Program-made: the position numbers and the translations under genes
Notes under the pieces: model-generated
The model's input: only the letters and a program-made list of their open reading frames with translations
Database searches by the model: none
What the model was told of the DNA's origin: nothing
Source of the DNA: Bacteroidota bacterium
GTDB taxonomy: Bacteria > Bacteroidota > Bacteroidia > J057 > JAJTIE01
Length of the DNA: 35,936 nucleotides
Direction: 5' to 3'
NCBI GenBank assembly: GCA_019638695.1
Contig: JAHBTG010000025.1
Location: forward strand, 1-35,936
Part shown: piece by piece, positions 1 through 1,969 of the stretch
Layout of the letters: every line of letters begins with the position of its first letter
Numbering within the stretch: the first letter of the stretch is position 1

Positions 1-734
1 GGATGTGCGGCGGCCCGGGAGGCAACACGCTGAGATGCTTCCGCAGGCGGGGCTATATTTCCCAGCTTGGATTCCAGCAGGCGGAGGGTGTCGTCCTCAT
101 CAAATAGCCCGGCCACGATCAGGGTAGCCTGGGTAGGGTGAAAATACGTTCTGGCATAGGTCCGGCAGCGTTCGGGAGAAAGGGCATCCAGGTCCTGGGA
201 GGTGGGGTGAGTGGCATAGGGATGTCCCGGCCCAAAGATCTTTTCGCCAAAGATCACCCTGGCCTGGTAAGGCGTTTTTTGCTGCTCCACCACCAGCCGC
301 TGGCGGGTACGTTCCAGTTCGGTGGCAAATTCCTCCTCGGGTAAAGTAGCGTTCAGCACCACATCCCTGAGCAGGTTGAGTGTCAGCGGCAGGTGGCGCT
401 CCAGGGTGCTCAGGGTGAGGGTAGAAAGCTCATAACCGGTGTCCACACTCAGGCTGGCCCCAAAGTCGTCCAGCATCTGGGAGAGCTGCAGGCTGGTCTT
501 GGTGGTGGTGCCTTCTGTCAGGAGCTTGCCGGTGAAGGCCGCCAGCCCGGTAATGTCTTCATAGCAGTTGCCGGCCGGGAATACCAACTGGCATTCTACC
601 ACTTCCTGGGTGCCATAGCGTATCATATACACCGGTATCCCGTTGCTCAGGGTGTGCCGGGAGACTGGGGGCAGGGGCACATAGGTGATGGCGGCGGCGG
701 CGGGCGGGCTTTGGCGGTCTAGTCTGCGGCTCAT
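1..734 (-). CDS. M16 family peptidase, non-catalytic partner subunit (partial)
   Basis: The reading frame runs from an ATG at 734 off the left edge, so only the first 244 or so residues are visible. The sequence around residues 60-75 (GLAAFTGKLLTEGTT) aligns with the place where active M16 proteins carry HxxEH, but no His or Glu zinc ligand is present. This is typical of the inactive subunit of two-gene M16 pairs (the MPP alpha / processing-peptidase-like arrangement). The later VVEQQKTPYQ and GHPYATHPT segments also fit M16. Its ATG overlaps the TGA of the upstream M16 gene (ATGA), so the two are translationally coupled and probably form a heterodimer. There is no signal peptide at the chosen start. 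The C-terminal domain lies outside the window. Confidence 0.85.
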   Translation of the reverse strand, partial: MSRRLDRQSPPAAAAITYVPLPPVSRHTLSNGIPVYMIRYGTQEVVECQLVFPAGNCYEDITGLAAFTGKLLTEGTTTKTSLQLSQMLDDFGASLSVDTGYELSTLTLSTLERHLPLTLNLLRDVVLNATLPEEEFATELERTRQRLVVEQQKTPYQARVIFGEKIFGPGHPYATHPTSQDLDALSPERCRTYARTYFHPTQATLIVAGLFDEDDTLRLLESKLGNIAPPAEASQRVASRAAAH

Positions 735-1969
735 GCTTGCGTACTCAGGTAATAGAGGGTGGAGCACTGCTCCGGGCGCAGGTATTTCTGCTTGGCATCC
801 AGTACTTGTTGTGCTGTCAGCTGTCGGTAGGCGTCTGCCTGGGTATTGATGAGATGCGGGTCTCCCAGGCTGTCATAGATCGCCATGGACATGGCGCGGT
901 TCAGCACGGTGGTCTTTTCAAAGATATCGCTGCTCTCTATACGGTTTTGCATGCGTTCCAGCTCGTCCGGTTTCAGGCTGTCAAATTCCTGCAGTACTTC
1001 GTTCAGCACCTGTTCATATTCTTCCACTGTGCGTCCTTTGGCCACTCTTCCTTCTATGGAGAGCATGCCGGGGTCATAGAGCCCCCAGGAAAAAGCAGAT
1101 ATGCTGCTGGCCACGCGGGTTTCCTTCACCATCCGCTGGTAGAGCCTGCCGCTCTTGGAGCCGGTGAGCAGGTCTGTGACGATATCGGCGGCAATGTAGT
1201 CCTGTGCAGCGCGGGGCGGGCAATGCCAGGCTTTGTACACGGCATGGTAAGGCACGTCCTTTTCTACCGTCAGGCTGCGGGCTTCATGCTGTGGCGGTTC
1301 GGTAATGCGGCGCGGGCGTTTGACGTCCCGCCGCGGCAGGGGACCGAACCATTTCTCCGCCAGGCGCATGGCTTCTGCTGCTTTGATACCTCCGCTAATA
1401 ACCAGTGTGGCATTGTTGGGGGCGTAAAAGCGGTAAAAGAATTCTTTGATTTCGTCCAGCGAAGTGTGCTCTACATGTCCCGGGTCTTTGCCTATGGTCA
1501 TCCAGTTGTAGCTGTGGAAGCGGAAATGCAGGGGACGCAGCAGTAGGTAGGCGTCTCAGTAGGGCTGGTTGAGGTAGCGTTGTTTGAATTCTTCGATCAC
1601 CACACTGCGCTGCACGGCCAGGTTCTGTTCGCTGAAGTCGAGCTCCAGCATACGGTCACTCTCCAGCCACAGGGCTGTCTCCAGCTGGCTGCCCGGCAGG
1701 GTAATGTAATAGTTGGTAATATCACTGTTCGTGAAGGCATTGTTCTCCCCGCCCACCCGTTGCACATGGGTGTCATAGTCTGGCACATGCTTGCTGCCGC
1801 TGAACATGAGATGCTCGAACAGGTGTGCCAGCCCGGTGCGGGTGGGGGATTCATCCGCTGAGCCCACCCGGTAAAGGATGTCCACGGCCACTTTGCTTAC
1901 GGTGGGGTCCTCATGAATAAGTACCCGCAGCCCGTTGTCCAATACATAGCTGGTGAAGTGAATGTGCAT
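731..1969 (-). pseudogene. M16 family zinc peptidase, catalytic subunit, interrupted by in-frame TGA
   Basis: Read from the ATG at 1969, the first 137 residues carry the inverted zinc motif HLFEH (His49, Glu52, His53) and the downstream Glu pair (VVIEEF, Glu126/127) that supplies the third ligand. The frame then meets TGA at 1558-1556 and continues, with no shift, through DAYLLLRPL into TIGKDPGHVE and FFYRFYAPNNATL, all normal M16 sequence, to a TGA at 733-731. Family members usually read NQPYGD here, so a GGA glycine codon appears to have become TGA. With the stop read through, the protein would be 412 residues, a normal length for a one-domain-pair M16 subunit. An ATG at 1501 could restart the second half, but that half lacks the zinc site. 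The next gene encodes the inactive partner. It is either a recent pseudogene, a sequencing error, or (less likely) read through. Confidence 0.85.
1556..1558 (-). other. In-frame premature TGA in the M16 peptidase gene
   Basis: The plus strand reads tca, giving TGA on the minus strand, between the codons for NQPY and DAYLLL. Both flanks are conserved M16 sequence in the same frame. TGA is used as a normal stop elsewhere in the window (uppS, coxA, ctaA, sco), so general reassignment of the codon is unlikely. Confidence 0.9.

Follow-up and report, generated by a model that had tools for sequence, protein, structure and literature searches.

An in-frame TGA in an M16B zinc peptidase gene of a Bacteroidota bacterium: probably a recent nonsense mutation

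What does a single TGA signify when it falls inside a gene for an M16B zinc peptidase whose coding sequence continues in the same frame on either side? The question is raised by a locus at one end of the window, by which we mean the whole stretch of DNA that was analyzed (35,936 nucleotides; contig C65, 1-35936). The window belongs to a 2.94-Mb draft genome of 146 contigs that is about 96% complete. The locus is organized as follows.

731..1969, minus strand: gene for an M16B zinc peptidase, the catalytic member of a subunit pair, broken by a single in-frame TGA.
1559..1969, minus strand: N-terminal fragment of 137 amino acids, with zinc motif HLFEH at 1811-1825 (PF00675, translation).
1556..1558, minus strand: the in-frame TGA, codon 138, a glycine in the relatives read across the site.
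731..1555, minus strand: in-frame C-terminal remainder, with constraint as in relatives and a first internal ATG at 1501-1499.
1..734, minus strand: 5' portion of the gene for the partner M16 subunit, truncated at the contig end, the rest lying at G000:C110:15048-15518.

Translation of positions 731-1969 on the minus strand yields a 412-residue M16 protein with one TGA and no change of frame. The two Pfam domains of an M16B catalytic subunit are both present above curated cut-offs, Peptidase_M16 (PF00675, E=5e-21) on the N-terminal side of the stop and Peptidase_M16_C (PF05193, E=1e-28) on its C-terminal side. The HxxEH zinc motif, here HLFEH at residues 49-53, precedes the TGA (bases 1558-1556), which sits directly C-terminal of the zinc-site region. 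These results bear out the initial annotation, which had read M16 coding on both sides of one TGA in the same frame, with the zinc site on one side and the rest of the protein on the other. The uninterrupted frame expected of an M16B catalytic subunit is broken at codon 138.

The alignment to M16 proteins of relatives that the initial annotation had proposed as a check placed glycine opposite the stop in each of the 34 relatives whose sequence was read through this position, with all four GGN codons in use among them, and close relatives do read NQPYGD there, as had been claimed. The accompanying proposal of a one-base change from GGA to TGA fared less evenly. The glycine stands, but GGA as its ancestral codon can only be supposed, the two nearest relatives having GGC at this position; GGA accounts for 103 of the 820 glycine codons in the genes of the window. 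In a search of the same class, the ortholog was present in 209 of 296 genomes, and 149 of the 150 ortholog matches listed were without an internal stop, the sole exception among them being the genome studied here. Since all other listed orthologs are open, the stop is, among the genomes searched, confined to this one, and a private lesion with intact relatives is the pattern of a recent nonsense pseudogene. Recurrence of the stop at the same place was considered and rejected, as the stops flagged in two relatives (G018 and G002) sit at the C-terminal end and are not internal. In another draft genome (G016, contig C583), the M16 ortholog matches as two overlapping pieces near residues 73-79, an apparent frameshift.

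The stop codon of the gene (TGA, 733-731) overlaps the start of the partner (ATG, 734-732) in an ATGA arrangement, which supports the translational coupling suggested earlier. The partner had also been described as open. Within the window it is open only up to the contig edge at position 1; the remainder at the end of contig C110 is open as well. The partner is split over the two contigs (window 1-731 and C110), and the matched pieces leave a gap of roughly 35 residues between them. In G001, a member of the same family with 79% identity and the nearest relative in the comparison set, both M16 genes are intact and lie next to each other.

The age of the lesion was approached with a relative-rate test that set this lineage against G001, with an order-level consensus as outgroup. 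Before the stop, 6 changes fell in this lineage and 4 in G001; after it, the counts were 23 and 22, with 27 unresolved. Of the residues after the stop that do not vary in the order-level set, 29 of 30 are kept here, and intact relatives depart at 0 to 4 invariant residues in the same kind of test. The dN/dS ratio against G001 was about 0.06 before the stop and 0.17 after it. However, intact pairs show the same contrast between the two parts (identity between G001 and G007 is 0.76 in the N-terminal part and 0.55 in the C-terminal part), and the higher divergence after the stop is consequently a property of the family. Because a second lesion and an acceleration of rate after the stop are both lacking, the earlier description of a fresh loss of function is supported. 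Judged from the sequence, the coding stretch after the stop is undecayed, and the stop would then be very recent, absent from the organism, or read through.

A coding-potential scan of sampled stretches (589 kb, 20% of the genome), with a best-frame filter against antisense shadow frames, showed how unusual the site is. Coding signal flanked a same-frame stop on both sides in 36 cases. In nearly all of these a start codon was nearby; where the ATG was distant, the cases that were read out resembled ordinary boundaries between genes or weak, non-coding tails. The M16 TGA was the only site in the 589 kb with strong coding straight through and no nearby start, which argues against general recoding and against a generally error-ridden assembly.

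We therefore favor, with a probability of roughly 0.62, a recent single-base nonsense substitution in an otherwise normal and conserved M16B zinc peptidase gene, a reading that takes the base to be real. This figure, like the lower standing given below to an error or minority variant, is a matter of judgement and was not computed.

The explanation that survives best beside it is that the TGA is an error of sequencing or assembly, or else a variant from a minority strain that was carried into the consensus, and that the organism's gene is intact. We regard this as possible, though on balance doubtful. It would fit a lesion that consists of one substitution only, in a gene that is otherwise fully constrained and bears no trace of decay. 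It would also fit a draft in which the TGA is 1.6 kb from a contig end and the operon is divided between two contigs; a contig end so close, within the same operon, is a mild warning on the base. Set against it are the cleanness of the assembly elsewhere, with no second stop within continuous coding in the 589 kb sampled, and the fact that bacteria commonly carry genuine nonsense alleles of recent origin.

Functional readthrough or recoding of the UGA, whether by a suppressor tRNA, by misreading by tRNA-Trp, as selenocysteine or as glycine, would deliver a full-length protein and would account for a C-terminal part without relaxation. Yet it is the glycine that is conserved and not the stop, neither cysteine nor tryptophan occurs at the position in the relatives read, and the fold downstream of the stop is only weak. 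The candidate mechanisms were rejected one after another. For selenocysteine, no tRNA-Sec match exceeded the RF01852 cut-off in this genome, about 96% complete, and relatives have glycine in place of UGA or cysteine at the site (34 of 34). For a suppressor tRNA, none of the 35 tRNA matches in the genome carries a UCA anticodon. A tRNA-Trp with a 4-bp anticodon stem is the form linked to UGA readthrough (PMC13092985); the tRNA-Trp (CCA) found here has a stem of 5 bp (ACGGT/ACCGT). A genome-wide code with UGA as a sense codon is contradicted by the use of TGA as terminator in 6 of the 29 genes of the window (none of which contains an in-frame TGA), by an intact prfB (RF2), by the missing UCA tRNA, and by the clean 589-kb scan. 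The read-through option of the initial annotation thus lacks support, since machinery, suppressor tRNA, conserved stop and a second such case in the sampled genome are all wanting, and we consider it very improbable. Still harder to credit is the extension in which the stop is real and efficiently read through, so that an isolated UGA in place of a glycine codon yields a regulated level of full-length protease.

The tRNA search also brought up a tRNA-like element at G000:C35:18106-18221 (L078:1107-1222), 116 bases in length, which scored 35.6 bits with the Rfam tRNA model and was missed by ARAGORN. Its variable region, at about 45 bases, is very long, and its anticodon loop, UCGUCUA, is unusual and gives no UCA anticodon. 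Elements about 70% identical to it occur in G002 and, in at least 3 tandem copies, in G012; no counterpart was found in G001.

That the gene works as two polypeptides, with a restart at the internal ATG (1501-1499) followed by reassembly, can be dismissed as scarcely credible, for although this ATG lies 19 codons past the stop and opens a 256-aa frame holding the C domain, a restart there skips about 18 residues after the stop, every match listed in the class search is one open frame with no split in relatives, and the apparent split in G015 sets no precedent and was rejected because both of its pieces run to contig ends.

If a single-base nonsense substitution did recently strike the M16B gene, translation would end after residue 137. 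The resulting fragment would retain the zinc motif and lose two thirds of the protein, so that activity is very unlikely and the protease would be inactive in this strain or population of cells. Translation of the coupled partner may in turn be reduced. The loss could be buffered, because two further M16 loci are open and carry HxxEH motifs (C95, 435 aa, HFLEH; C54, 952 aa, HFVEH), and these may cover part of the function. A single nonsense in a common bacterial zinc-protease gene is of an ordinary kind, with little import beyond annotation, where a flag for a possibly broken gene is warranted. If the stop is real, an M16 pair kept as widely as in the class search would be losable in a lineage with other M16 proteases.

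Among known systems, the closest structural counterparts are the two-subunit M16B zinc peptidases, of which the active subunit in 3amj/3ami matches best in the PDB (E=2e-48 over residues 9-373). Like these pairs, the gene described here has the HxxEH motif and an adjoining second, partner M16 gene; unlike them, it stops after residue 137. Save for the possible sequencing error, the locus does not differ from recent bacterial pseudogenes that arose by one nonsense substitution, with which it shares a single stop, two intact flanks and intact orthologs.
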